64,000 nt of DNA. Source: Ignavibacteria bacterium. Its GTDB lineage: Bacteria; Bacteroidota; Ignavibacteria; Tepidaquicellales; OLB5. The stretch is taken from assembly GCA_017303675.1 (NCBI GenBank), contig JAFLBX010000001.1, forward strand, positions 1,313,970 to 1,377,969. Direction: 5' to 3'. Of the stretch, positions 8,913-62,144 are shown piece by piece (position 1 is the first letter of the stretch; every line of letters starts with the position of its first letter). The notes below the pieces were generated by a model. It saw only the letters and a program-made list of their open reading frames with translations, did not search any database and was not told the DNA's origin. The position numbers were made by a program, and so were the translations under genes.

Positions 8913-9026
8913 ATGAAGACCTTTTTTGTATTAGCTCAGAATCACCATACACCTGTTTACCCTTATTCAGGATATACACACCGAATGAGTTTTATTAATG
9001 ATTCTATAAACCAGCATTCCTTATGA
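8913..9026 (+). CDS. Short upstream ORF (37 aa), ATGA-coupled to secreted protein gene
   Basis: An ATG at 8913 has a near-perfect Shine-Dalgarno (TGGAGGAAAT) and opens a 37-codon frame, MKTFFVLAQNHHTPVYPYSG at its N-terminus. Its TGA (9024-9026) overlaps the ATG of the next gene as ATGA. The downstream start has no Shine-Dalgarno of its own, so translational coupling is plausible. MKTFFVLA looks like a cut-down signal peptide, so it could equally be the remnant of a broken secreted-protein gene. No homology is claimed. Confidence 0.45.
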   Translation: MKTFFVLAQNHHTPVYPYSGYTHRMSFINDSINQHSL

Positions 9027-10318
9027 ACATAAAAAAAATTTTAATTGTCATAATTTGGTTCAACCTGATTTGTTCAACTTTTTGTCAGTGGATACAATAT
9101 TCTACCGGTTTGGGCTCCGATAAGTACATTTATTCCTTAGCAAACATAGAAAATAATATCATTGCAGGTATTTCAAATATCCCGAGTGGTTTTGGAGGAG
9201 CTTATGTATCAACCAATAATGGTCAAACATGGTCTCAAACCCTGAATAATCGAATGGTATATTGCCTTGCTACGTTGGGAGATTATATTTTCGCAGGTAC
9301 TCACACATATTATTACCCTTCAGGAATTTTTTTTACTACCAATAATGGACTAAATTGGACACAAACAACAATGAATGATGAGGAGGTTTTTTCCTTAGCA
9401 ATTTCAGAAAATAAAATTTATGCAGGTACTCTTAATAACGGAGTATTTTTTTCAACAAATTTTGGTTTAAACTGGATCCAAACTGCATTGAATGACAAAG
9501 ATATATATTCATTGGCAATTTCAGGTAATAATGTGTACGCGGGTACTTATTATCATAGCATTTATGTTTCAACCGATAATGGGGTAAATTGGTCTCAACG
9601 GTTATTATACAATCAGTCGAATATTTATTCAATTGCAGTTTCAGGAAACAATATTTATGCAGGAACAAACGGTAACGGTGTTTATATTTCAACAAATAAT
9701 GGATTAAACTGGTCTCAAACTGCTTTAAATCATCAAGAAATCCGTACTATTGTGATTTACGGGGACTATGTTTTTGCTGGTTCTATTGAAAATGGCGTTT
9801 ATCTCTCAACAAATAATGGTTTAACCTGGTCACAAAAGAATGAAGGTTGGAATTCTATTCCCCCAATAAATACCCTACATATTGCAAATAATTACATTTT
9901 TGCTGGTACAAGATATTCTTCGGTATGGAGACGTCAATTGCATGAAGTGGTTGGAATAAAAAACATATCCATTAGTCTTCCGTTAATTTTTTCTCTTTCC
10001 CAGAACTACCCCAACCCCTTCAATCCGCAAACGAAGATAAAGTTCAGTATTCCCCTCTCGAGAGGGGTGACCGCCGAAGGCGGGCGGGGTGTGTTTGTAT
10101 CATTAATTATTTACGATCTGCTCGGACGGGAAGTTACGACACTTGTAAACGAAGAGCTTAAACCCGGCACTTATGAGGCTGACTGGGACGGCTCGGGTTA
10201 CTCAAGCGGTGTTTATTTTTATAAGCTTGTGGTTGGTGACCCTTGGACAACTGCGGAGGCAGTGAACAGCTCAGGACGGGGGTTTGTTGAAACAAAGAAA
10301 ATGGTTTTGATGAAGTGA
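9023..10318 (+). CDS. Secreted BNR-like repeat protein with T9SS sorting domain
   Basis: 431 aa: signal peptide (1-21, ending CSTFCQ), then about seven repeats of roughly 40 residues with the pattern VYVSTNNGLNWSQT...I(Y/F)AGT, a sialidase-like (BNR) propeller. It ends in a T9SS type A sorting domain beginning SLSQNYPNPFNP and ending ETKKMVLMK. Export by Sec and then T9SS to the surface is expected. Two in-frame insertions lie inside the sorting domain: a palindrome-coded segment after SIP (LSRGVTAEGGRG) and a second one after LVVG (DPWTTAEAVNSSGRG). Both match dispersed repeats. The start overlaps the 37-codon ORF; a terminator follows at 10369. Confidence 0.85.
   Translation: MNIKKILIVIIWFNLICSTFCQWIQYSTGLGSDKYIYSLANIENNIIAGISNIPSGFGGAYVSTNNGQTWSQTLNNRMVYCLATLGDYIFAGTHTYYYPSGIFFTTNNGLNWTQTTMNDEEVFSLAISENKIYAGTLNNGVFFSTNFGLNWIQTALNDKDIYSLAISGNNVYAGTYYHSIYVSTDNGVNWSQRLLYNQSNIYSIAVSGNNIYAGTNGNGVYISTNNGLNWSQTALNHQEIRTIVIYGDYVFAGSIENGVYLSTNNGLTWSQKNEGWNSIPPINTLHIANNYIFAGTRYSSVWRRQLHEVVGIKNISISLPLIFSLSQNYPNPFNPQTKIKFSIPLSRGVTAEGGRGVFVSLIIYDLLGREVTTLVNEELKPGTYEADWDGSGYSSGVYFYKLVVGDPWTTAEAVNSSGRGFVETKKMVLMK
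10051..10091 (+). repeat. Palindromic repeat inserted in frame in sorting-domain codons
   Basis: Perfect 16-bp palindrome CCCCTCTCGAGAGGGG (10052-10067) followed by a hairpin CCGCC-GAA-GGCGG (10071-10083) and GCGGGGTGTGTTT. Variants of the same element sit at the equivalent codon of four other cargo genes on the - strand. Confidence 0.8.
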
Positions 10319-39111: not shown

Positions 39112-40560
39112 TTATTTTAGCAGAATCATTTTTTTAGTTTCAGTGAAACTGCCTGAAGTTAGTTTGTAAAAATAAACTCCGCTTGGATAGTTAGAAGCGT
39201 TCCAGTCAGCTTTGTAAGTACCCGGTTTCAGCATACCATTTTGTAATGATTCTACATTTCTGCCCATAGCGTCGTAAATTGTGAGGTTGACAAATTCCGC
39301 CTGCGGAATACTGAACTCGAAATTAGTTGTTGGGTTGAAGGGATTGGGGTAGTTTTGTGAAAGCGAAAATTCATCGGGAATTTCAGTATTCATGCCTGAA
39401 ATTCCCACCGGATTGCCTGTTGGATTCCTTTTGTAGTAAATTTCAGGATTGCCATCCCTGCTGTCTTCCCATGCTAAATGAACTACCTGATCTGAAATGT
39501 TAACAGAGGGCTGCCTGGCTGTCAAAACTGTGTTAACAAGCCTGAGTTCTGTATCCCATGATTCCCCGTAGTTTGATGATTTTCTGTAATACAGCTGGAC
39601 ATTGCCTGTCCTGTCATCATCCCAGACCAAATGAACATAATTACCGGAGGCTGAAATGTTGGGCTGGGACGAATTGCCTGTACTTGCTGTCATTCTTGTA
39701 TCTGCCTGCCAAGTAGAACCATTATCAGTAGAGCGTTTATAATAGATCTCGTAATCGGAATCTCTGAAATCTGCCCAGCAAACGTGAACATATGTACCGG
39801 ATGCGTCAACTGAAATATTTTCGGCTTCTGTAGTTGTATTAATAATGCGGGTATCCGCTGACCAGTTTAAACCGCTATTGGTTGAACGTTTATAATACAC
39901 CTGCGGCGGACCCTGCCTCAGATCACGCCAAACAATGTGCCATGCTGAAGAAGTAATAGCCATATCGGGATAGTCTGAAATGGCGTTGTTGTTTGTGATA
40001 CGTGTTTCAGTACCCCAGTTCAGACCCGCATCGGTTGAGTGGATCATGTAAATTTCCTGGTTGCCGTCTCTCTGGTCATCCCACACAATAACAACAGTTG
40101 AATTAAAGAGTGTTATACTTGGTTTTTCAGAAACTGAAGAGTTATTGCTTAACCTGATATCATTGCTCCAGTTTATTCCGGCATCTCCGGACCTTTTATA
40201 ATATATTTCATAATTGCCGTCACGGCCATCCACCCAGGCAGTATGTATTGTAGCTCCCGAGACTTCGACCGATGGATATTCTGATGAGAAAGTATTGTTT
40301 GTCAATCTTGCGTCATTGCTCCAGCTAATACCGGCATTAGTTGAACGTTTAGCGTAAATTTCACTGTTACCATCCCTTGAATCCTGCCAGACAGTTACGA
40401 CCAATTGACCTGATGAGGATATACACCTTGCATTGTTAAGGGGTACGGTAGATAAAGCAGTATTGTTCGTCAGCCGGGTATCTGCTGACCATTGGGAAAT
40501 TAACGGCAATGCATAGAGCATTGCCGTTAAGATATAGATGTATTTTATAGTTCTTTTCAT
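39112..40560 (-). CDS. Secreted sialidase-like (BNR) repeat protein with T9SS sorting domain, tandem copy 2
   Basis: 482 aa: signal peptide (1-22, ending ALPLISQ), seven repeats of about 50 residues with W(S/Q)ADTRLTNN...VWQD(S/D)RDGN.EIYYKRSTNAG, a sialidase/BNR-type propeller with Asp-box-like turns, and a sorting domain SLSQNYPNPFNP...ETKKMILLK without palindromic insertion (SIPQAEFVNLTIYD). The ATG is 4 bp behind the stop of the paralogous gene at 40565, so the two form an operon and arose by tandem duplication. Function unknown; probably surface adhesion or carbohydrate binding. Confidence 0.87.
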   Translation of the reverse strand: MKRTIKYIYILTAMLYALPLISQWSADTRLTNNTALSTVPLNNARCISSSGQLVVTVWQDSRDGNSEIYAKRSTNAGISWSNDARLTNNTFSSEYPSVEVSGATIHTAWVDGRDGNYEIYYKRSGDAGINWSNDIRLSNNSSVSEKPSITLFNSTVVIVWDDQRDGNQEIYMIHSTDAGLNWGTETRITNNNAISDYPDMAITSSAWHIVWRDLRQGPPQVYYKRSTNSGLNWSADTRIINTTTEAENISVDASGTYVHVCWADFRDSDYEIYYKRSTDNGSTWQADTRMTASTGNSSQPNISASGNYVHLVWDDDRTGNVQLYYRKSSNYGESWDTELRLVNTVLTARQPSVNISDQVVHLAWEDSRDGNPEIYYKRNPTGNPVGISGMNTEIPDEFSLSQNYPNPFNPTTNFEFSIPQAEFVNLTIYDAMGRNVESLQNGMLKPGTYKADWNASNYPSGVYFYKLTSGSFTETKKMILLK

Positions 40561-40564
40561 AATT

Positions 40565-42046
40565 TTATTTCACTAATATCATTTTCTTTGTTTCGGTGAA
40601 GCTGCCTGATGTAAGCCTGTAAAAATATACACCGCTGTTGTAACCCGATGCATCCCAGGCAGCATTATATGTTCCGGGATTCAGTTCGTCATTTACCAGT
40701 GTTTCAATTTCTCTGCCCAAAGCGTCATAAACAGCAATGTTTACTAAACCGGAATGAGGAACGCTGAATTCAATATTTGTAACCGGATTAAACGGATTGG
40801 GATAATTCTGTGATAAAGAGAATTTATCAGGTTCCTGGCTGTTTATGTTTGTAATGCCTGTCGGGTTGCCTGTTGGATTCTGTTTATAATATATCTCATA
40901 GTCACTGTCACGCAGGTCAGACCATAAAGCATATACTTTATTAACTGAAAATCCTGCTAAGGGGTATCGGGCAACTGCCGTACCTGTGTTTAATTTCAGG
41001 TCAGATGCCCAGCTGACACCCGAATTGGAAGAAACGTTGTAATATATCCCGTAGGTACCTGTCCTGTTATCTTCCCACACAAGGTGTATATGTGTTGGCG
41101 AAACCGAAAGAGCCGGAGCATAAGAATTACCGGTACTGTTTGTAATTCTCTGAATTGCTTCCCATGTTGAGCCGTTGTTTGTTGATCGTTTGAGGTATAT
41201 TTCATAGTTGCCATCCCTGTCATCTTCCCAAACAACATTCAGGCTTCCTACACCGCTGGTATAAAACCGCTGTATACAAGGTTTTCTTGAAGCTGCGGAA
41301 TTGGTTGTGAACCTGCTTTCAGCAGCCCATGTAAGCCCTGAGTTGGTGGAGCTGATGTAATATATCTCATCATTGCCGTCCCTGTTATCCTGCCAGACGA
41401 TGTGCGTGTTTTCACCCGAATCGGTTGTTATTGATGGCGATATTGAACTTCCGGAATTATTTGTCAGTCTTACAATTGGCTCCCATGTAATACCGTTATC
41501 GAGCGAGCGCTTAAAATATATTTCGTTGTTTCCGTCCCTGTCATCCTGCCAAACCACCTGGATAACATTCAGGCGCAAACTTATGGATGGGTTTACTGAA
41601 GTTGCGCCGTTCGTGGTAAGCCTTTCATCACCGCTCCACGAAGCGCCATGATTAGTTGAGAGCTTATAGTAAATTTCAAAGTTTCCGTCTCTTTGGTCCT
41701 GCCATACAACATGTATATTGCTTCCAGAAGCTGCAATTGAGGGCATTTCAGATGCGCCTGCATTGTTGGTGAGTCTTACAACCGCTTCCCATGTAGCGCC
41801 GTTATCGGTGGAGCGTTTGTACATTATTTCAGTATCCCCGAACCTAGCATCATACCAAACGGTATGAACATTTGATGTACCTGAAAATTCTATATTCTTT
41901 GCATTGTTGCCGGAAGTGAACGATAATCCGGCATTGTTTGTGTGTCTTATATCTGCAGACCACTGGGCAAAGCCGGTTGAGGCTGCAAATACTGAAACAA
42001 TAGATAAGATGATGCAGATTAAATTTGAAAATTTTGTAAGTTTCAT
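40565..42046 (-). CDS. Secreted sialidase-like (BNR) repeat protein with T9SS sorting domain, tandem copy 1
   Basis: 493 aa from the ATG at 42046, which has a strong AAGGAG Shine-Dalgarno 7 bp upstream and begins a signal peptide (MKLTKFSNLICIILS...STGFAQ). Seven BNR-like units (VWQDQRDGNFEIYYKLSTNHG type) and a sorting domain SLSQNYPNPFNPVTNIEFSVP...ETKKMILVK follow. The same reading frame stays open for 73 further codons upstream, to 42265, and that extension encodes a ribbon-helix-helix-like domain. The extended product would be 566 aa with an internal signal peptide. Near-copy of the next gene. Confidence 0.85.
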   Translation of the reverse strand: MKLTKFSNLICIILSIVSVFAASTGFAQWSADIRHTNNAGLSFTSGNNAKNIEFSGTSNVHTVWYDARFGDTEIMYKRSTDNGATWEAVVRLTNNAGASEMPSIAASGSNIHVVWQDQRDGNFEIYYKLSTNHGASWSGDERLTTNGATSVNPSISLRLNVIQVVWQDDRDGNNEIYFKRSLDNGITWEPIVRLTNNSGSSISPSITTDSGENTHIVWQDNRDGNDEIYYISSTNSGLTWAAESRFTTNSAASRKPCIQRFYTSGVGSLNVVWEDDRDGNYEIYLKRSTNNGSTWEAIQRITNSTGNSYAPALSVSPTHIHLVWEDNRTGTYGIYYNVSSNSGVSWASDLKLNTGTAVARYPLAGFSVNKVYALWSDLRDSDYEIYYKQNPTGNPTGITNINSQEPDKFSLSQNYPNPFNPVTNIEFSVPHSGLVNIAVYDALGREIETLVNDELNPGTYNAAWDASGYNSGVYFYRLTSGSFTETKKMILVK

Positions 42047-42265
42047 TTTTTTCTCCTTATGGTTTGAGTTTATATATGATTTGTTTTTACCCCTGTTGCT
42101 CTTGCATGATAAATTGTTTAATTCTTCGAAATATTGACTGCATGCTTTATTGATCACTTCATCCGCGCTTGCTTTCATGATCTTTTGTATTCTTGCTATC
42201 AGTTTATGCGTTCCCGGTTTAAGCCTGTATCCTCTTGCAACTGTTTTGGTCCGTTTTATCCTCAT
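42047..42265 (-). CDS. Ribbon-helix-helix-like domain encoded in frame ahead of the BNR cargo
   Basis: 73 codons from ATG 42265 with no stop before the cargo ATG at 42046. Residues 12-50 read as beta-strand (GYRLK), helix (PGTHKLIARIQKIM) and helix (ADEVINKACSQYFEEL), the layout of RHH DNA-binding proteins; a polar Lys/Asn-rich linker follows. The Shine-Dalgarno of the cargo gene lies inside the last codons (K-E-K). The predicted promoter and a direct repeat GTGCACT..CT lie just upstream. Either this is an autoregulator that has lost its stop codon, or a genuine fusion whose domain would be left in the cytoplasm after signal-peptide cleavage. Domain call by pattern only. Confidence 0.5.
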
Positions 42266-42300
42266 CCGCAGATTTTTTTATATCTTTTTATCAGTTGACC

Positions 42301-42322
42301 GTGCACTTCTTGTGCACTAGCT
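42301..42322. promoter_or_regulatory. Two 11-bp direct repeats, candidate RHH operator
   Basis: GTGCACTTCTT and GTGCACTAGCT lie head to tail, eight of eleven positions equal, with each core GTGCAC itself a palindrome. They sit between the predicted transcription start (about 42328) and the RHH-like ORF start. One helical-turn spacing is typical for RHH operators. Confidence 0.45.
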
Positions 42323-42334
42323 AAGTATCGTTGA

Positions 42335-42367
42335 CAAAAATACGTGCAGCGGGCAGCCTGAAACAAA
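42335..42367 (-). promoter_or_regulatory. Promoter of RHH/BNR cargo operon (TTTG-N21-TATTTTTG)
   Basis: On the - strand, TTTG (42367-42364), 21 bp, TATTTTTG (42342-42335), 69 bp before ATG 42265. The predicted transcript therefore includes the RHH-like codons. Confidence 0.6.
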
Positions 42368-42501
42368 TAGAAATATCAGGTTGAATGACGGGTGAGTTTT
42401 ATGGTAACCTTATAAAATACTTGTATTTTGAGGATTTTTTGGGTTTATTTGGTGAACTTTTGTGACGATAAAGCTCACTGAATTTGCGGAGAAATATATC
42501 A

Positions 42502-43983
42502 ATGAACTCAGAAATTACTTTAAAACAATTCAAACTTTTTGATGTTCTGTCTACATTTTCCGTGAAAGAATATGCAGAGTTCGGGAAACTTGTGCTTTCA
42601 CCGTTTTTCAGTTTAGGCAGAAATCTTTATCCCCTTTATGAACTGCTGGGGAAATATCACCCTGATTTCAGCAGCAGCAGGGCAAAGGAAAATCTGACAA
42701 AAGAGAAGATCTATGGGGTACTTAATCCCGGTAAAAAATATGATGAAAAGAAAGCGGATGTTATATTAAGGAGATTGTTTTCAGATCTGAATAAGCTGGC
42801 TGAGCAATACCTGCTTTTGCTCTCATTAAAAAAGAACACAATTGAAGGCGAGTTTATTCTGATTCCTGAATTGATAAGAAGAAATCTTGATGCTTCATAC
42901 TATAAACATATCAAAAAAGTAGAAGATCATCTAAGGACCCGGAAAATAGATGAATTTTACTTCAGACAAATGGCTGATGCTGAAAATCTGAAATATTTTT
43001 ATAACCTTTCAAGGATCGACCACCAGGAGTCAGTAATTGATAATGTGATAAGAAAAGGTGAGTATAACATTATTTATACATTACAAATGCTTGGTGAGGC
43101 AATGCAGAATGCAGGTGCTAATCACAGGGTATTTAACGCTCCTTATGAAGATACGATTATTTACCGGTTCGCTGAAAAAATAGATTATGCGGGCTTTTTG
43201 GATTCTGTTTTGAAAAACCCCGGTGACCTTAAAGATAACCTGAAATTAAACTGCTTCAGGCTGATGAATATTCTGAATCCCGGAAATATAGAACTGGTTA
43301 TCAAATTCAGGGATATGATAATAGCGGACCTTGATAAATACAGTGCAGAGGAACAGAATATACTGCTTATTGGCGCGCTGAATTTAATGAGGAAAGCCGG
43401 GCTTGGAAAAGAATGTTTTGAGCTAAACCGGTTTATACTTGAAAAAGGTTTGTATCACCTTGATAAGACCAAACCTTTTCCGCTGATAATTTACAGGGAT
43501 CTGTTCAGGGGCGCGTTATTTTACAATGAACTTGGTTGGGCGGAGAGCTTCATTGAAACTTACCACAAAAAACTTTCAACTGAATACCGTAAAGATATGC
43601 TGCATTACAGCAACGCATACCTGGAGTGGAGCAGAGGTAATTATGAAAATGTGCTGCTGCATTGCTCAAAGCTCAAATCAAAAGATGCCCGTGTTGTAAC
43701 TGACCTGAAATTGCTGACATTAAGGGCTTATTATGAGCTGGAGGCATTTGAGCCTGCATTATCACTGATAGATTCATTGATCCTTTATCTTAAACAGAAT
43801 AAAAAAATTTCGAGGGAAATAGGAATCTTCTACAGTGATTTTGCAAAAATAATCAAAACTCTTCTAATGTACAGGCTGGGGGAGCGTAAAGTAACATTAG
43901 ATAAAATTAAAACGAAAATTGAAGGCTCAAAAAATATTTACGCTATAGACTGGCTGCGTAAAAAAACCGCGGAGCTTGACTAA
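42502..43983 (+). CDS. Helical protein of unknown function, copy 3 of a three-member local family
   Basis: 493 aa from ATG 42502, which has GGAG about 11 bp upstream; an in-frame TTG at 42484 would add six residues. Cytoplasmic and helical, with the family signature FDVLSTFSVKEYAEFG, LSPFFS, YHPDFSS, NPGKKYDEK and LAEQYL, the TPR-like C-terminal part (YSNAYLEWSRGNYENVLLHCSKLKSKD, LRAYYELEAFEPALSLIDS), and a final AIDWLRKKTAELD. It is the most divergent of the three copies, with a longer region between HPDF and NPGKKY. Divergent from the RHH/BNR operon and convergent with the next cargo cluster. Confidence 0.8.
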   Translation: MNSEITLKQFKLFDVLSTFSVKEYAEFGKLVLSPFFSLGRNLYPLYELLGKYHPDFSSSRAKENLTKEKIYGVLNPGKKYDEKKADVILRRLFSDLNKLAEQYLLLLSLKKNTIEGEFILIPELIRRNLDASYYKHIKKVEDHLRTRKIDEFYFRQMADAENLKYFYNLSRIDHQESVIDNVIRKGEYNIIYTLQMLGEAMQNAGANHRVFNAPYEDTIIYRFAEKIDYAGFLDSVLKNPGDLKDNLKLNCFRLMNILNPGNIELVIKFRDMIIADLDKYSAEEQNILLIGALNLMRKAGLGKECFELNRFILEKGLYHLDKTKPFPLIIYRDLFRGALFYNELGWAESFIETYHKKLSTEYRKDMLHYSNAYLEWSRGNYENVLLHCSKLKSKDARVVTDLKLLTLRAYYELEAFEPALSLIDSLILYLKQNKKISREIGIFYSDFAKIIKTLLMYRLGERKVTLDKIKTKIEGSKNIYAIDWLRKKTAELD

Positions 43984-44068
43984 CGGGCTGGATTATTAAG
44001 TGGTGTAAATTTTGATTATATCTGAATAAAAGTAATAAAAAATCAGTACTGATACAGGTAAACAGTAG

Positions 44069-45019
44069 TTACTTTATTAAGATCATCTTTTTTGTTTCAG
44101 TAAAATTTCCGGCAGTTAGATTGTAAAAATATACTCCACTGGGGAAGTTAGAAGCGTTCCAGTCGGCTTTGTAAATGCCGGACTTTAGTTCACCGTAATG
44201 CAGTGTCTCAACAACTCTTCCCATAACATCGTAGATTTTTAGGTTAACAAACACACCCCGACTGCCTTCTGCAGTCACCTCTTTAGAGAGGGGAATTGAA
44301 AATTTGATCTTTGTTGAAGGGTTGAAGGGGTTTGGGTAGTTTTGAGAAAGCGAAAATCTTTCAGGTACATTGCTTGAAATTATACTTATCCCGATCACTG
44401 ATGACGTATCTCCGTAGACAATTCCATTTAACACAAATCCACGCAGTTCTGCAATACGACCATATATTCCCTGATTCCCTGTGCTCGTTCTTGAGATGTA
44501 ATGCAGGCCTATATTCTTTAAGAAATTATGATGATAGGAAGCAGTATTATGACCATTAATAAAGTATCCAAAAGCTTTTACATTAGTTGGTTGATTAAAA
44601 AGGAAAGTATCGCTGATATTCAGGCATGTGTATTGCCAGTCTGAATAACATACACCGGTTGTATCTCCTATTTGTGAAGAGAGTCTGAATAGTATACTTT
44701 CATAGTTACAGGGTGCCCATATTGTTGATTGTTTCAGCAAACCGTTAACAGAATCATACCTGATCAATATAATATTCGTGTCACCTATATTACTGAATGG
44801 ATAACCCTTTACTTTAAAATACTTTTTACTGTTAACAATGGTATCATTGAGAACTCTAAGGGTTTTAATATTGTAAGTTGGCGAAGGATAGCCAAGTTCT
44901 GTAACATAGTAGAACCATTTATTCCCTGTTTTTAAGGGGAAATACTTTGCTGAATTAGTATCCTGAGAGCAGATATTTATCGACATTAATACAATGATAA
45001 TAGTTAAGATTTTTTTCAT
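44069..45019 (-). CDS. Secreted protein of unknown function with T9SS sorting domain
   Basis: 316 aa: signal peptide (1-18, ending NICSQ), a 200-residue N-terminal part starting YFPLKTGNKWFYYV that I do not recognise beyond its beta-rich look, then a sorting domain (SLSQNYPNPFNPSTKIKFSIP...ETKKMILIK) carrying the in-frame palindrome-coded insertion LSKEVTAEGSRG. Last gene of a three-gene run (spacings 13 and 8 bp) with two YCF48-like cargo genes upstream. The 85 bp to helical gene 3 hold no convincing terminator, only a TCAGTACTGA palindrome. Confidence 0.82.
   Translation of the reverse strand: MKKILTIIIVLMSINICSQDTNSAKYFPLKTGNKWFYYVTELGYPSPTYNIKTLRVLNDTIVNSKKYFKVKGYPFSNIGDTNIILIRYDSVNGLLKQSTIWAPCNYESILFRLSSQIGDTTGVCYSDWQYTCLNISDTFLFNQPTNVKAFGYFINGHNTASYHHNFLKNIGLHYISRTSTGNQGIYGRIAELRGFVLNGIVYGDTSSVIGISIISSNVPERFSLSQNYPNPFNPSTKIKFSIPLSKEVTAEGSRGVFVNLKIYDVMGRVVETLHYGELKSGIYKADWNASNFPSGVYFYNLTAGNFTETKKMILIK
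44252..44293. repeat. Palindromic element inside sorting-domain codons (third cargo of run)
   Basis: ACACACCCCG, hairpin GACTGCCTTCTGCAGTC, then CCTCTTTAGAGAGGGG (CCTCT/AGAGG arms). Same codon position as the other copies. Confidence 0.7.
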
Positions 45020-45032
45020 TGAGTATTCTTTG

Positions 45033-46364
45033 TTATTTAGTAAGAATCATTTTTTTAGTTTCTGAAAAGCTTACTGCACTTAACCTGTAGAAATAAACTC
45101 CGCTTGGGAAGTTTGATGCGTTCCAGTCGGCTTTGTAAATGCCGGACTTTAGTTCACCGTTATGCAGTGTCTCAACAACTCTTCCCATTGCATCGTAGAT
45201 TGTGAGGTTGACAAACACACCCCGTCCTTCGGACACCCCTCTCAAGAGGGGAATACTGAATTCGAAATTAGTAGTTGGGTTGAAAGGGTTGGGGTAATTT
45301 TGTGAGAGTGAGAAACTTTCGGGAATTTCAGTTGAAATATAATTTATTCCAGTGCTCCTTATAAATTTGGAAATTCCTCCATTATTTCTTACAGCCCAAA
45401 TATTGGACATTGTATTTTTGTTGTTAGAAATATGTGTATAATTTCCACCAGGTGCTGTGTACTGTAAATTCCAGTTCACTCCATTAGTCCCTTCAAAAAT
45501 TTTGTTATCAATGCAATACCAATTTTTGTTTGGCTGACTTGGTAAACCTGAAATTCCTGTTATTTCACCTGAAGGAAGTGTAAAAACCGGCTGCCAGCTT
45601 GCACCAAGATCATTTGTTTTTAATATTGCATTACTTCCTGATAAACCATATCCTACTGCACGTTCTGTAAGTAAAAACTGAAACCAAATATTTGTTGAAT
45701 TAACAACAGGATAAGTTGATTGCATTATCCAGTTATATCCAATATTACTTGAATAATAAATACGGGAATTATTTGTACCAAACCAAACTTTCATTTCTAA
45801 ACAAAATACTGAATTGTTGAATCCGGTTTCTGAACCGGTTTGAGGCATATATAGGCCGCTGGAATCCCAGGTAATACCTTCGTTGGTAGAACGCCAAATT
45901 GTCCACCTTCCCCCTACAGGTTTACCGATTAACAGCATGTTTTGTGGAAACGGAGATAATTCAGCGAACCCGTATATATTTCCGTTAGGCTGAATAAATG
46001 TATTTTGCCATGTTTGCCCACCGTTGGAAGTGCGGTAAATTACAGCCTGGCCGCTGTTATTAACTCCTGATGTAACAGCACGGGAATAATCATTAGTAAA
46101 ACCGTAAATTGTTGTCAAATTAACCGAAACCGGTATTCCGGAAGAAACATTATTCCAGTTTGTTCCGCCGTTTGTTGTGCTCAATACTGTACCGTTATTA
46201 CCGCATATCCAGCCATGCACTGCAGGAGGTGAAGAGTAAAATGATGTAGCACAATTTAAAGATACATTTACTCCTGATTGCTGTTCAATCCAGGTATCCT
46301 GAGAATAAAATTGATTAACCAGTATGATAAATTCAAACAAAATTACTATTGCTTTGAATTTCAT
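45033..46364 (-). CDS. Secreted YCF48-like propeller protein with T9SS sorting domain
   Basis: 443 aa: signal peptide (1-21, ending VNQFYSQ), repeats of the GNNGTVLSTTNGGTNW / VIYRTSNGGQTW type that resemble YCF48/BNR beta-propellers, and a sorting domain SLSQNYPNPFNPTTNFEFSIP...ETKKMILTK with the insertion LLRGVSEGRG. Its last 194 nt before the SIP codons are identical, as read by eye, to those of the neighbouring gene at 46373. Only 8 bp separate it from that gene. Confidence 0.85.
   Translation of the reverse strand: MKFKAIVILFEFIILVNQFYSQDTWIEQQSGVNVSLNCATSFYSSPPAVHGWICGNNGTVLSTTNGGTNWNNVSSGIPVSVNLTTIYGFTNDYSRAVTSGVNNSGQAVIYRTSNGGQTWQNTFIQPNGNIYGFAELSPFPQNMLLIGKPVGGRWTIWRSTNEGITWDSSGLYMPQTGSETGFNNSVFCLEMKVWFGTNNSRIYYSSNIGYNWIMQSTYPVVNSTNIWFQFLLTERAVGYGLSGSNAILKTNDLGASWQPVFTLPSGEITGISGLPSQPNKNWYCIDNKIFEGTNGVNWNLQYTAPGGNYTHISNNKNTMSNIWAVRNNGGISKFIRSTGINYISTEIPESFSLSQNYPNPFNPTTNFEFSIPLLRGVSEGRGVFVNLTIYDAMGRVVETLHNGELKSGIYKADWNASNFPSGVYFYRLSAVSFSETKKMILTK
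45213..45253. repeat. Palindromic element inside sorting-domain codons (YCF48-like cargo 1)
   Basis: ACACACCCC, hairpin GTCC-TTC-GGAC, then ACCCCTCTCAAGAGGGG (CCCCTCT/AGAGGGG arms). Six nt shorter than the copies at 10051 and 44252, keeping the frame. Confidence 0.8.
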
Positions 46365-46372
46365 AATTTACC

Positions 46373-47611
46373 TCATTTTATTAAAACCATCTTCTTTGTT
46401 TCTGTGAAATTACCCGCACTTAACCTGTAGAAATAAACTCCGCTTGGGAAGTTTGATGCGTTCCAGTCGGCTTTGTAAATGCCGGACTTTAGTTCACCGT
46501 TATGCAGTGTCTCAACAACTCTTCCCATTGCATCGTAGATTGTGAGGTTGACAAACACACCCCGTCCTTCGGACACCCCTCTCAAGAGGGGAATACTGAA
46601 TTCGAAATTTGTTGTTGGGTTGAATGGATTGGGGTAATTCTGTGTTAAAGAAAATCTTTCCGGTACTTCGCTGCTAATAGGTTCAATTCCGATAGGGTCG
46701 CCGCCTGTTGTAGTATATAAAATTTTTCCTGCTCCGCCGACTATAACACCTGTGAGCGGGGAAGTTAGCTGAACGCCGAACCATGTGGTATTGCTTACCG
46801 GTGAAGCCTGCTGGTACCAAAGATCTCCGCCATTTGTTGTGCGCAGTATTACAGAAGAATACCCGACTGCATTTCCTGTCATAGCGTTTGCAAATGAAAT
46901 TCCGTTGAGAGTGTTTGCAACAGGGGTGGTTTGCGGGATCCAGCTTATACCGCCATCAATAGTTTTAAGAATTGTACCATTGGAACCTGAAACATAACCA
47001 GTATTATTATCCACAAATGAAATACCATACAAGTCAGCGGTTGTACCGCTTGAAAGATTATTAAATGTCGCTCCGGCATCTGTTGTATAAAGCATCAGCC
47101 CGTAAAATCCAAGAACAATGGCTCTATCACCTCCGATAAATTTAACGGTGTTCAGGCTTACCTGCGGTGCACCTGATACCTGAACCCAGGTCTGCCCGCC
47201 ATTGGTCGTTCTAAGCAGTGTGCCAACATATCCGCTTATAAGGCCGGTATTAGCATCTTTAAAGCTTACTGAATAATATGGAATAAAATTAGAGCCTCCC
47301 TGCTGAGACCATGAACCGCCTGTATTGGTTGTTCGCAGAATTTTCTGCGGATAACCAACGGCGCTTGCTGTATTGTTATCTATCATGTGAATACCGCCGA
47401 GCCAGTAAGTATTGTTCTGGTTGACCTGGCTCCACGTTAAGCCGCCATTAACGGTTTTGAGAATTCTTCCGGCTTCACCGCATGCCATGCCGGTATTGAT
47501 ATCGGAAAATGATACACCGTAAATTATATCTGTATGACCTGAAGGTCTGACCTGCCATTGTGAAAATATTACTGCAGGCATAATTAATAGAAAAAGAATT
47601 ATTTTTTTCAT
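46373..47611 (-). CDS. Secreted YCF48-like propeller protein with T9SS sorting domain
   Basis: 412 aa: signal peptide (1-17, ending AVIFSQ), about seven repeats with ILKTVNGGLTW / ILRTTNGG..W and GVSFSDINTGMACG, matching YCF48-type photosystem assembly factor-like propellers (the name reflects fold, not function). Sorting domain SLTQNYPNPFNP...ETKKMVLIK with the palindromic insertion LLRGVSEGRG. First gene of the three-gene run 46373-45033-44069. It has no clear promoter motif in the 200 bp upstream. Confidence 0.87.
   Translation of the reverse strand: MKKIILFLLIMPAVIFSQWQVRPSGHTDIIYGVSFSDINTGMACGEAGRILKTVNGGLTWSQVNQNNTYWLGGIHMIDNNTASAVGYPQKILRTTNTGGSWSQQGGSNFIPYYSVSFKDANTGLISGYVGTLLRTTNGGQTWVQVSGAPQVSLNTVKFIGGDRAIVLGFYGLMLYTTDAGATFNNLSSGTTADLYGISFVDNNTGYVSGSNGTILKTIDGGISWIPQTTPVANTLNGISFANAMTGNAVGYSSVILRTTNGGDLWYQQASPVSNTTWFGVQLTSPLTGVIVGGAGKILYTTTGGDPIGIEPISSEVPERFSLTQNYPNPFNPTTNFEFSIPLLRGVSEGRGVFVNLTIYDAMGRVVETLHNGELKSGIYKADWNASNFPSGVYFYRLSAGNFTETKKMVLIK
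46553..46593. repeat. Palindromic element inside sorting-domain codons (YCF48-like cargo 2)
   Basis: Identical to the copy at 45213-45253. Confidence 0.8.
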
Positions 47612-57239: not shown

Positions 57240-57245
57240 TATTGG

Positions 57246-57350
57246 TGAGGACCCTTCGACAAGCTCAGGGTGAGGACCCTTCGACAAGCTCAGGGTGAGG
57301 ACCCTTCGACAAAGTTTATCCCGCAAGGTTTTTTCCGGGACTCAGGGCGA
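57246..57350. repeat. 25-bp tandem repeat with internal insertion in the last copy
   Basis: Two exact copies of a 25-bp unit (TGAGGACCCTTCGACAAGCT then CAGGG; 57246-57270, 57271-57295), then a third copy from 57296 in which about 27-28 bp (starting AGTTTATCCCGCAAGG) interrupt the unit between TTCGACAA and CTCAGGG. The core CCTTCGACAAGCTCAGGG is a widespread dispersed repeat; a decayed version lies inside the coding region at about 10232-10277. Confidence 0.85.
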
Positions 57351-58441: not shown

Positions 58442-59872
58442 ATGAAGAAATTTAATTCCGCTTTAGGTGTTTTTATGCTGGCTATTATGCTGTTTGCAGG
58501 CAGTGTTAATGCTCAGTTAAGACTTTCAGGAAACCAGACAGACAATAATAATTATATTGAACCTGTTAACTTCCTCCCAAATTCAGTTTTATTCAACCAG
58601 ATGGATTCAGTTGGTGGTACAGGTACCGCTTCACAGCAGTTCCCTGACTTCTCAAACAACGTTATTGAATCTGCTGAAGATTTTATCGTTCCTGCCGGCG
58701 TAAGCTGGAGAATTGACAGTATCGATGTTGGCGGCCAGTGGAGCATTGCAGGTCCAATGGTAACAATAAGATATAACATTTATTCAGATTCAGGTAATGC
58801 AGGTATCAGACCCGGAACATTATTATTCGCAGATTCAATGATCGTTCCTATCACTGCATTGAACAATGCAAGTCCTACTTTCAGACTGCCAACACCGCGT
58901 ACATTAACAGGCGGAGCTAGCGGAACAAAATACTGGATCTCAGTTATGACAGTTCATTCATTTGCAGCAACAGGGCAGTGGTTCTGGTCAACAAGACGCA
59001 CAAGATTATCACCATGTGTATTAAGAGATCCGGGTAACCTGCTTGCAGGCGGAACTGCATGGAGAATTACAACAACAACACCTAACCAGGGCGTACAGAT
59101 AAGATTAAGAGGCGAAGTTTTAACTCCCCCGGCTCCGGGACCGCAGACAACTATTTGCAGAAGCGTAAACTTACCAATTAATGACAACCAGTGGACCAGG
59201 GATTCAATCCAGGTTCTTCTTGGTTCAGGTTGCGTTATCACAGATGTAAATGTAAGAATTGATACAGTTATACATACTTGGGATGCTGATCTTTCATTCT
59301 ACTTAAACAAAGGCGCAGTTACATCATTACTTATTAATAAAAGAGGCTCTTCAGGTGATAACTTCATCGGAACTATACTTAATGATTCAGCAGCAAATCC
59401 AATTTCAGGCGGTACAGCTCCTTTCACAGGATCATTCAGACCTGAAACCCCGCTTGCACCGTTCAACTTCGGCGCTGGCCAGGGCGATGGTTACTGGAGA
59501 CTTTCAATCAGTGATACAGCAAATGGCGATACCGGTGCTTTAAGAAGATGGTGTCTGGTTATTTCCTATACCTGTCCAACAGGCGGAATTCAGACCGTAG
59601 AGATCCCGAATTACTACAGCTTAAGCCAGAACTATCCGAATCCGTTCAACCCCTCAACATCAATTAAGTTCACAATGCCTAAAGGCGATAACGTGAAATT
59701 AGTTGTATTTGATGTATTGGGCAGAGAAGTAACAACTTTGGTAAATGAATTCAGAAATTCAGGAACATATGAAGTTAATTTTGATGCATCAATGTTTTCA
59801 TCAGGCGTTTACTTCTACAGAATTGACACAGGTGAGTTTACTGATACAAAGAGAATGCTTTTAGTGAAATAA
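58442..59872 (+). CDS. Secreted P-domain protein with T9SS sorting domain
   Basis: 476 aa: signal peptide (1-24, ending GSVNAQ), an N-terminal beta-sandwich of unknown type (about 40-225), then a proprotein-convertase-like P domain (about 240-385: GCVITDVNVRIDTVIHTWDADL, GSSGDNFIGT, GQGDGYWRLSISDTANGDTG, RRWCLVISY), and a sorting domain (SLSQNYPNPFNP...TKRMLLVK). P domains usually accompany subtilisin-type proteases, but no catalytic domain is present here. ACGGAG lies 6-7 bp before the ATG. The last 240 codons are nearly the same as in the gene at 60351. Confidence 0.87.
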   Translation: MKKFNSALGVFMLAIMLFAGSVNAQLRLSGNQTDNNNYIEPVNFLPNSVLFNQMDSVGGTGTASQQFPDFSNNVIESAEDFIVPAGVSWRIDSIDVGGQWSIAGPMVTIRYNIYSDSGNAGIRPGTLLFADSMIVPITALNNASPTFRLPTPRTLTGGASGTKYWISVMTVHSFAATGQWFWSTRRTRLSPCVLRDPGNLLAGGTAWRITTTTPNQGVQIRLRGEVLTPPAPGPQTTICRSVNLPINDNQWTRDSIQVLLGSGCVITDVNVRIDTVIHTWDADLSFYLNKGAVTSLLINKRGSSGDNFIGTILNDSAANPISGGTAPFTGSFRPETPLAPFNFGAGQGDGYWRLSISDTANGDTGALRRWCLVISYTCPTGGIQTVEIPNYYSLSQNYPNPFNPSTSIKFTMPKGDNVKLVVFDVLGREVTTLVNEFRNSGTYEVNFDASMFSSGVYFYRIDTGEFTDTKRMLLVK

Positions 59873-60350: not shown

Positions 60351-62144
60351 ATGAAGAATCGGTTATTATTCTTTTTTTCAGTTATCGTTGTTTTTGCGGT
60401 AGTTCTCGGCTTTTATTATGGCGGAGATAACCGTAATGATTCAGCTCCTTTAACAGGTAACACTGTTACAGTTGAAGGTGATATGGTAGGCGGATGGTCA
60501 GCTGGCGCTAACATCCCTTCAAGCCATACATTCGGAGCTGCAGGCACATTTGTAAGAAATGATACTGCATGGCTGTTCTGCTACTCAAACAGTCCCGCTT
60601 CAACACTTCTTCAGAGATATAATTCCAGAACCAACACTTGGTCAACAATGGCTCCTGCTCCAAATACACTTGACAGAGCAGCAGGCGTGGTTCTTGGCGA
60701 TACTCTTTATATTTTCGGCGGAGCAAACGCAAGCAGCGTTTACCAGTCATCAGTAATGAGATATCACATTCCTTCAAACACATGGTCAGCAGGTAACCCG
60801 ATGCCGGTTGCAAAAGGCTGGGGAAAAGCTGTTGCTTACCAGGATAGCTTGATATTTATTGCCGGCGGTTATGACGGAACCAATGTTGCCAATACACCGC
60901 TTCTTTATAACAGGATAACAGGCCAGTACAGAAACTGTACAAACATGCCCGGAACAAGGTTCGGAGGCGGTTTTGCAGTAACAGGCGATACTTTAGTATA
61001 TATCGGCGGAGCTGATGCAACATTACTGTATAACCAGACATATGTTGGTGTTATCAGCCAGTCAAACAGAAGCACAATTACCTGGACAACAGGTATTCCT
61101 GCTCCTGCACCGTTCTCACCGGCTATCTTCAGAACAGATGCAATGAACTGGGGATGCAGAGGCGTTATATTAGTACACGGAAGTACAACAACAGCATTTA
61201 CAGGCGTTAACGGCTGCGCAGTTTACAGCCCGGGCGCAAACACGTATACCCCACAGGCTAACATGTTAACCGGCGCTTTATATGCAGGTGTTGGAAGCGC
61301 AAGATTTACAGGCAATATTTACAGGCTTTTTGTTGCAGGCGGTTATAACAACGCTTATTTAACTAACACACAGATCTTCACAGATACTCTTTGCCCCGCA
61401 CCGCCTCCGGGACCGCAGACAACGATCTGCAGAAGCGTAAATCTGCCAATAATTGATAATGCATGGACAAGAGATTCAATCCAGGTAACTTTAGGTTCAG
61501 GCTGCGTTATCACAGATGTAAATGTAAGAATTGATACAGTTATTCATACATGGGATTCTGACCTTTCATTCTATTTAAACAAAGGCGCAGTATCATCATT
61601 AATAATAGATAACGTTGGAAGCTCCGGCGATAATTTCATTGGTACCGTTCTTAACGATTCAGCATCAACACCAATTGCATCAGGAACAGCTCCTTTCACA
61701 GGACAGTTCAGACCTTCTAACCCGCTTGCACCATTCAATTTCGGCGCTGGCCAGGGCGATGGTTACTGGAGACTTTCTATCAGTGATACAGCAAACGGTG
61801 ATACAGGTTCATTAAGAAGATGGTGTTTGGTTATTTCCTATAACTGCCCGGTAGGCGGAATTCAGACTGTTGAAATCCCGAACTACTACAGTTTAAGCCA
61901 GAACTATCCGAATCCGTTCAACCCGTCAACATCAATTAAGTTCACAATGCCCCAGGGCGATAACGTGAAATTAGTTATATTTGATATTCTCGGAAGAGAA
62001 GTTAAAACTCTGGTAAATGAATTCAGAAATTCAGGTACCTACGAAGTTAATTTTGACGCTTCACTTCTTGCATCGGGTGTTTATTTCTACAGGCTTGAAG
62101 CCGGTGAGTTCACCGATACAAAGAGAATGTTACTCGTAAAATAA
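60351..62144 (+). CDS. Secreted kelch-propeller and P-domain protein with T9SS sorting domain
   Basis: 597 aa from ATG 60351, with ACGGAG 7-9 bp upstream and a hydrophobic export signal (RLLFFFSVIVVFAVVLGFYY). The longer frame from 60306 begins inside the predicted -10 box and is rejected. Residues about 50-345 form six kelch units (YNSRTNTWSTMAPAPN, LYIFGGAN, YHIPSNTWSAGNPMP, IFIAGGYDGT), a kelch/galactose-oxidase-like propeller. A P domain (about 355-505) and sorting domain (515-597) follow, nearly the same as in the gene at 58442. It looks like a domain-swapped paralogue. Confidence 0.87.
   Translation: MKNRLLFFFSVIVVFAVVLGFYYGGDNRNDSAPLTGNTVTVEGDMVGGWSAGANIPSSHTFGAAGTFVRNDTAWLFCYSNSPASTLLQRYNSRTNTWSTMAPAPNTLDRAAGVVLGDTLYIFGGANASSVYQSSVMRYHIPSNTWSAGNPMPVAKGWGKAVAYQDSLIFIAGGYDGTNVANTPLLYNRITGQYRNCTNMPGTRFGGGFAVTGDTLVYIGGADATLLYNQTYVGVISQSNRSTITWTTGIPAPAPFSPAIFRTDAMNWGCRGVILVHGSTTTAFTGVNGCAVYSPGANTYTPQANMLTGALYAGVGSARFTGNIYRLFVAGGYNNAYLTNTQIFTDTLCPAPPPGPQTTICRSVNLPIIDNAWTRDSIQVTLGSGCVITDVNVRIDTVIHTWDSDLSFYLNKGAVSSLIIDNVGSSGDNFIGTVLNDSASTPIASGTAPFTGQFRPSNPLAPFNFGAGQGDGYWRLSISDTANGDTGSLRRWCLVISYNCPVGGIQTVEIPNYYSLSQNYPNPFNPSTSIKFTMPQGDNVKLVIFDILGREVKTLVNEFRNSGTYEVNFDASLLASGVYFYRLEAGEFTDTKRMLLVK

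Follow-up and report, generated by a model that had tools for sequence, protein, structure and literature searches.

A probable recent gene conversion between the sorting domains of adjacent type IX secretion cargo genes in an Ignavibacteria bacterium

Two adjacent cargo genes with an identical tract in their sorting domains

The window considered here is a stretch of 64,000 nucleotides from an Ignavibacteria bacterium (assembly GCA_017303675.1, contig JAFLBX010000001.1, positions 1,313,970 to 1,377,969 of the forward strand), in which two neighbouring genes look like cargo of the type IX secretion system (T9SS) and share an identical tract of DNA within their C-terminal sorting domains (CTDs). 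Cargo gene 1 (45033..46364, minus strand, 443 aa) and cargo gene 2 (46373..47611, minus strand, 412 aa, with orthologs in sister genomes) each encode a YCF48/BNR-like propeller followed by a T9SS type A CTD. The two CTDs score 37.6 and 44.9 bits with TIGR04183 (cut-off 23), and Pfam Por_Secre_tail (PF18962) also passes its cut-off at the C-terminal end of both genes. The sorting domain lies at the very C terminus in each case, as in type A cargo. Moreover, the genome encodes T9SS machinery, including a PorU sortase (917 bits, cut-off 420) and a SprA translocon (910 bits over its frame, cut-off 200). Both proteins are therefore treated here as predicted T9SS type A cargo; their N-termini, judged by eye, resemble signal peptides.

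The first-pass annotation had read, by eye, two identical stretches of about 194 bp in these genes, a palindromic insertion included, and had described the propeller parts as clearly diverged. Exact alignment confirms all of this. The tract of gene 1 (45076..45269, minus strand), which encodes the CTD core NFEF...YFYRLS, and that of gene 2 (46416..46609, minus strand) agree at 194/194 positions, the exact run being neither longer nor shorter, and the insertion is present inside both copies. Among direct exact repeats of at least 25 bp in the window, this run is the longest, and the runner-up measures 44 bp. Its two copies are 1.34 kb apart, in genes that are adjacent and co-oriented. All 64 codons of the tract are identical between the genes. 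The propeller bodies share 32% amino acid identity over 298 aligned residues, with a 46% codon match at identical residues, and the longest exact match in propeller DNA is 10 bp.

The CTDs are homologous beyond the tract on both sides. Their tails can be aligned without gaps over 294 nt, with 30 mismatches, all of which fall outside the 194-bp run (14 on its upstream side and 16 on its downstream side, relative to the direction of the genes). When mismatch positions were shuffled along the tails, no run of this kind arose in 200,000 shuffles, with an analytic bound of 3e-14. In gene 1, the 5' part of the CTD (45270..45341, minus strand; IPESFSLSQNYPNPFNPTT) is homologous to gene 2 with 7/16 same-residue codons identical, and the 3' end (45033..45075, minus strand) with 3/9. 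An identical tract bounded by homologous, diverged sequence is what gene conversion leaves. Since diverged CTD sequence is found on both sides, the exchange would have taken place inside two CTDs that already existed.

The age of the tract can be judged from sister genomes (G002, G005, G008, G010 and G012, compared with the source genome G000), a comparison that the first-pass annotation had put forward as a check and that supports a young tract. In six sister genomes, gene 2 has orthologs with 80-89% identity along most or all of the protein length. In five sister genomes, the body protein is 81-88% identical and only 46-54% of same-residue codons match. Synonymous sites are thus strongly diverged between sister species, so that a perfect 194-bp match within one genome must be much younger. 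By this comparison, the tract is younger than the split from the sister species. Taken with its boundaries, this makes it very probable that the two neighbouring, same-strand cargo genes owe the identity to a recent homologous gene conversion between their CTDs.

It can be proposed that the CTD, as the longest well-conserved DNA common to neighbouring cargo genes, would serve as partner for homologous recombination repair, presumably RecA-dependent. Conversion would then overwrite a patch of one CTD with that of the neighbour and leave the exported propeller untouched. Whatever the patch contains would travel along, here the palindromic insertion that sits in the loop joining CTD strands 1 and 2. 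Repeated over time, such events would homogenise CTDs locally and uncouple the sorting domain from the cargo.

Recurrence and locality of exact tracts

Exact CTD tracts were surveyed in two genomes. In G000, which is assembled in 2 contigs, 204 CTD genes were obtained from 170 listed places (150 of 338 candidates scored, so that more CTDs may exist), and all 20,706 pairs were compared, those within 5 kb being called near. In G002, 150 of 304 candidates were scored and 155 CTDs were obtained, 14 of 33 stretches for single CTDs being left out. Exact CTD tracts of at least 60 bp were found in 8/189 near pairs of G000 and in 0/20,517 others. By distance, they occur in 4/80 pairs closer than 0.5 kb, 4/109 pairs at 0.5-5 kb, 0/213 at 5-20 kb, 0/10,924 farther apart on the same contig and 0/9,380 on different contigs. 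None of 20,000 shuffles of gene positions reached 8 near pairs (maximum 2). In G002, such tracts were found in 6/131 near pairs and 1/11,804 others, the single non-near pair being on the same strand and 7.2 kb apart; after two further CTDs were added, the counts became 6/132 and 1/12,114, the extra near pair having no long tract. Again, 0/20,000 shuffles reached 6 near pairs (maximum 3). An adjacent gene pair of a third species, in G012, shares 201 identical CTD bases with bodies that are 33% identical. Among near pairs of G000, tracts occur in 8/172 same-strand and 0/17 opposite-strand pairs, opposite pairs being few. From these comparisons of assembled genomes, the exchange appears to prefer nearby copies, locally and recurrently in two genomes.

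The endpoints of the tracts differ among the 10 examined. Starts range from before the YPNPFNP motif to a later part of the domain, and ends from the first half of the domain to the stop codon. Homologous exchange predicts such variation. A fixed CTD cassette, or site-specific exchange of one, is ruled out by the same observation.

Several observations weigh against conversion between neighbouring CTDs as the origin of these tracts. Runs of at least 30 bp are also found between distant genes: their numbers in G000 are 12, 7, 4, 6 and 9 for pairs at <0.5, 0.5-5, 5-20 and >20 kb and on another contig, respectively, the last two classes corresponding to 6/10,924 and 9/9,380 pairs. Of these 15 distant pairs, 9 owe their match wholly to the palindromic element described below, and one (57 bp) consists of recently duplicated genes. 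The 8 near pairs of G000 represent only 5 loci, with 4 pairs in one of them, so that fewer than 8 independent events are involved. In some pairs the bodies are similar as well (60% identity in G000 1034470/1037956, one of the 5 loci; 66-68% in two of the 6 near G002 pairs), and younger duplication may add to their tracts. Exact tracts of at least 60 bp are present in bodies too, in 7/189 near pairs of G000 (6 of the 7 from one four-gene array) and 2/131 near pairs of G002. The identity of the tract in genes 1 and 2 is known from the assembly alone. Finally, the signals for the direction of transfer conflict between the gene-2 orthologs and the CTD core of a G010 gene, as described below.

The body tracts rule out conversion that is exclusive to the CTD. 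Bodies are about 4 times longer than CTDs. The limitation of conversion to the sorting domain, as worded in the first-pass annotation, is therefore abandoned; conversion itself is retained, on the diverged CTD flanks, the young tract and the local recurrence. The CTD is not a special cassette but the homology common to otherwise dissimilar neighbours. Such an array of four tandem cargo genes, at L168 (G000:C2:1158034-1168719), combines first parts that are almost the same (exact over up to 503 bp) with second parts that mostly differ and with CTDs that differ.

A palindromic element inserted in one loop of the sorting domain

The insertion carried by both tracts, PLLRGVSEGRGV, is one copy of a dispersed two-hairpin palindromic element (45216..45250, minus strand, G000:C1:1359185-1359219 in gene 1; 46556..46590, minus strand, G000:C1:1360525-1360559 in gene 2). 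The element consists of ATTCCCCTCTTGAGAGGGGTG, a second hairpin of variable sequence, and then CGGGGTGTGTT. In an AlphaFold2 model of the gene-2 CTD (mean predicted local distance difference test score, pLDDT, 85.5), the insertion lies in loop 31-41, between strands 23-30 and 42-50, and the confidence is lower in the loop (mean pLDDT 69 for residues 31-40). The best match of the model in the PDB is the T9SS CTD of T. forsythia mirolase (E 1.3e-3, template-modelling score 0.56); no match reached E 0.001. In a CTD from G010, the domain is the same but lacks the insertion. Compared with shuffled sequences, the insertion folds as DNA with only mild stability (z -1.87). In genes 1 and 2, the element is simply inside the converted tract and was carried along.

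The pattern of the element is matched in 13/13 genomes of the genus searched, with no control match; a stricter pattern is found in 9/395 genomes sampled across the phylum, two of them of the genus. In G000, G002 and G012, 62 copies were read, a census of copies caught by one pattern that misses variants beyond it. The central hairpins are of 50 distinct sequences among the 62, and have a stem of at least 5 (G-T allowed) in 65% of cases compared with 11% in shuffles. CTDs contain 23 of the copies, all at one loop. The central length is 1 mod 3 in 23/23 CTD copies and in 8/39 copies elsewhere (Fisher p 2.6e-10), which argues that CTD copies are filtered by the reading frame. The idea that coding copies exist in CTD loops only was dropped, because three of the 39 non-CTD copies are located deep within other open frames, of which two are related 867-aa frames of G002 (L398, L470) and one is a 573-aa frame of G012 (L484). 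In the remaining non-CTD frames of at least 140 aa, the element is near an end.

A further copy of the element, with a different hairpin, is found within the window in the CTD loop of the cargo gene at 9002-10318 (10053..10093, plus strand; G000:C1:1324022-1324062). Other palindromic sequences also occupy this loop in other genes and genomes: inspection reveals inserts such as VETTRWVVF and PASLNPSKGGTFVS; inserts of the VETTR, CCCTCC...GGAGGG and GAGCGA...TCGCTC types were seen in CTD loops at L169, L179, L180, L184, L231, L302, L303 and others. One CTD loop stands out as a notable hotspot for in-frame palindromic insertion.

Mobilisation of the element by a transposase associated with repetitive extragenic palindromic (REP) sequences, or RAYT, was also considered. 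G000 has 9 Y1_Tnp (TnpA_REP-like) genes (L197-L205), and 0/21 element places lie within 1.5 kb of these 9 genes. Several Y1_Tnp genes have similar hairpin palindromes on both sides, unlike the CTD element; L201 is an exception, with an upstream CCCCTCC...GGAGGGG palindrome that resembles the first hairpin of the element. With no element near Y1_Tnp genes and with different flanking palindromes, a RAYT as mobiliser is unsupported.

Decoupling of bodies and sorting domains

The region next to gene 1 shows that bodies and CTDs can have separate relatives. Positions ~39400-45060 of the window correspond to a block of ~5.6 kb in G010 (L086:2570-8190), with 85-100% identity per 100 bp, mostly 92-99% in cargo bodies; a stretch around the CTD of gene 44069 is an exception, at 80-88% with gaps. 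By comparison, gene 2 and the adjoining gene 47811 have only 72-75% nucleotide identity in the body to their G010 orthologs. The block is probably a recent exchange between species, and its edges were seen to lie in or beside CTDs. Within it, gene 40565 matches its G010 counterpart throughout, whereas genes 39112 and 44069 have CTD cores unlike those of their counterparts (59% and 62% identity after the insertion) despite matching bodies. Gene 1, for its part, has a CTD core that is 93% identical (128/138 nt, after the insertion) to that of a G010 gene with a body only 27% identical.

Within G000, the genes at C1:1384 (L099) and C2:221956 (L096) have bodies that are 87% identical in amino acids, with 90% identical codons, and CTDs that are 52% identical in amino acids. 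By their bodies, these genes appear to be recent duplicates, one of which would have had its sorting domain swapped. Across species too, replacement of CTDs decouples body from CTD.

A third neighbouring cargo gene, at 44069..45019 (minus strand), has a CTD with exact runs of 43 bp and 27 bp common to genes 1 and 2, which reads as a putative older or partial exchange. Elsewhere in the window, a related pair of cargo genes (59231-59763 and 61503-62035) shares several exact runs of 25-41 bp, and a tandem repeat with a 25-bp period lies at 57244-57312.

Direction of transfer

Two comparisons bear on which gene was the donor. Of 8 sister orthologs of gene 2, those of G002 and G008 contain the insertion and the other six lack it; its presence in these two suggests gene 2 as a possible donor. 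The 93% match of the gene 1 core to the G010 gene, which lies beside the block shared with G000, suggests instead that gene 1 may be the donor. Both comparisons concern short stretches, and in the coding CTD flanks the identity of gene 1 to the G010 gene falls to 77% and 74%. A transfer from gene 2 to gene 1, favoured at first, was withdrawn after the G010 comparison.

Weighing other origins of the tract

Conversion has to be weighed against other ways in which two neighbouring genes could come to share 194 bp. The palindromic element itself might drive the exchange, if its hairpins stall replication or get nicked and repair then copies the neighbouring CTD. This is compatible with conversion, and the tract does contain the element. 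Tracts of at least 60 bp were found in 6/24 near pairs of G000 with a stem of at least 7 in both CTDs and in 2/165 others (Fisher p 5.4e-5). However, stems that arise by chance satisfy the criterion as well (75 of 204 CTDs), a single cluster supplies 4 of the 6 pairs, and a shared palindrome by itself lengthens exact matches. Moreover, the element is missing from some long tracts (72 bp in G000 655255/657181, 198 bp in G002). The data are only suggestive of stimulation of conversion by the palindrome, and we consider the element rather unlikely as the driver. Module shuffling, which the first-pass annotation had offered alongside conversion, is a still less probable origin of the tract. Gene 1 would then have arisen when a different propeller was joined to a fresh copy of the neighbour's sorting domain, either by illegitimate joining or by integration of a circle through a CTD crossover. 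The best relatives of the gene 1 body (50-58% in five sister genomes) are, where this is known, on contigs other than those of the gene-2 orthologs and have different CTD cores, as shuffling would have it, and the reassorted bodies and cores of the block shared by G000 and G010, the gene 1 core found on a dissimilar G010 body and the C1:1384/C2:221956 pair all point the same way. Yet diverged homologous CTD sequence flanks the tract, the junctions being inside the domain and not at its edges, and tract endpoints vary from case to case. Shuffling is thus set aside as the origin of the tract and kept, in part, as a long-term outcome, in the decoupling of bodies and CTDs across species.

The remaining possibilities have far less to recommend them. 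Recent tandem duplication of a whole gene, followed by fast divergence of the propeller, would account for two adjacent genes of the same general fold on one strand. It is highly improbable with bodies 32% identical, of 46% codon match, beside a CTD core 100% identical, and with gene-2 orthologs 80-89% identical in six sister genomes when the gene 1 body reaches at most 58% among the matches listed; recent duplication of the whole gene is ruled out by the divergence of the bodies. Equally hard to credit is an assembly artefact in which one CTD sequence was placed at both loci, for the tract is short, its flanks are unique and diverged, and the assemblies of two other species contain tracts of the same kind. 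Strong selection could in principle hold the same DNA in both genes, through codon usage or the structure of RNA or DNA, and codon agreement in sister orthologs is indeed higher in the CTD than in the body in G012 (64 vs 46%), G002 (69 vs 50%) and G008 (58 vs 46%). No CTD excess is seen in G005 (48 vs 47%) or G010 (39 vs 54%), and same-residue codons of the tract differ in sister orthologs (identical in 37/53 for G002, 34/50 for G012 and 34/56 for G008), which leaves selection with almost no likelihood. Recent homologous conversion between the two CTDs is accordingly preferred over all of these.

Relation to known systems

Gene conversion among tandem genes is known, with examples in rice, mammals and M. 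tuberculosis. The case described here resembles the concerted evolution of tandem paralogs, in which, in the part of the sources available, patchy identity between paralogs is ascribed to gene conversion. It departs from what that part of the sources describes in that mostly one short domain of otherwise dissimilar proteins is concerned. Within T9SS cargo, gene conversion and domain rearrangement have been described for surface proteins of Porphyromonas gingivalis, T9SS cargo included (Dashper 2017; PMC5266723, of which a part was available). There too, recombination reshuffles surface-protein domains and the conserved C-terminal domain is kept, as far as the available part of the paper goes. 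The exchanged units are, in that part, adhesin and catalytic modules, discussed as antigenic variation (PMC5266723), whereas here the sorting domain itself is exchanged, between neighbours with dissimilar exported parts. No report of sorting-domain conversion between neighbouring cargo genes was found in the open PubMed Central literature by titles and the starts of abstracts, subscription papers being outside this scope. We therefore regard gene conversion here as a known process in a new setting.

The closest parallel to the insertion is provided by the Rickettsia palindromic elements (RPEs), in-frame palindromic insertions in genes (PMC10969869, in the part available). Like RPEs as presented there, the element is a dispersed palindromic repeat found in frame in protein-coding genes; its copies occur both in and outside genes, and the coding copies are in frame. 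RPEs are, according to the same partial source, of ~150 bp and in unrelated genes, in contrast with an element of ~41-60 bp that has a hypervariable second hairpin and 23 of its 26 coding copies (three genomes) in one loop of one domain family. CGTC-tagged REPs, which are short palindromes reported in Chlorobi and Bacteroidetes too in the part of the paper available (PMC3733652), should also be compared. On inspection, CGTC on the reverse strand is seen to border the variable hairpin in many copies, as in these REPs. The element differs from them in its conserved first hairpin, in its GGGGTGTGTT tail and in stems whose length and sequence vary by copy. The complementary A and T with which stems of the CGTC families start, according to the same part of that paper (PMC3733652), are not seen in it. 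The element is set apart from CGTC-tagged REPs and is not assigned to them. Using the same search of titles and abstract starts in open PubMed Central literature, to which subscription papers were external, no report of a palindromic insertion hotspot in this CTD loop was found.

Implications for the evolution of T9SS cargo

A broader proposal, which we regard as possible and hold only tentatively, is that the T9SS sorting domain acts as a recombination handle as well as a sorting signal. Since every cargo gene ends in a sorting domain, neighbouring and incoming cargo genes would exchange through it, and bodies and CTDs would be reassorted within a few per cent of divergence. At the same time, the loop between strands 1 and 2 would be a repeatedly used in-frame landing site for several unrelated families of palindromic repeats, which conversion would then spread.

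G000 and G002 each have at least 150 sorting domains above the family cut-off, on proteins that may otherwise be quite dissimilar. The CTD tags also offer a natural assay for in-frame palindromic insertion, with one loop, many copies, several kinds of repeats and a reading-frame filter by which coding copies can be told from non-coding ones. If the tag is a recombination site, this would explain how cargo repertoires diversify while remaining exportable, and trees of sorting domains could not be used as trees of cargo genes. The sorting tags would then evolve separately from the proteins that carry them.

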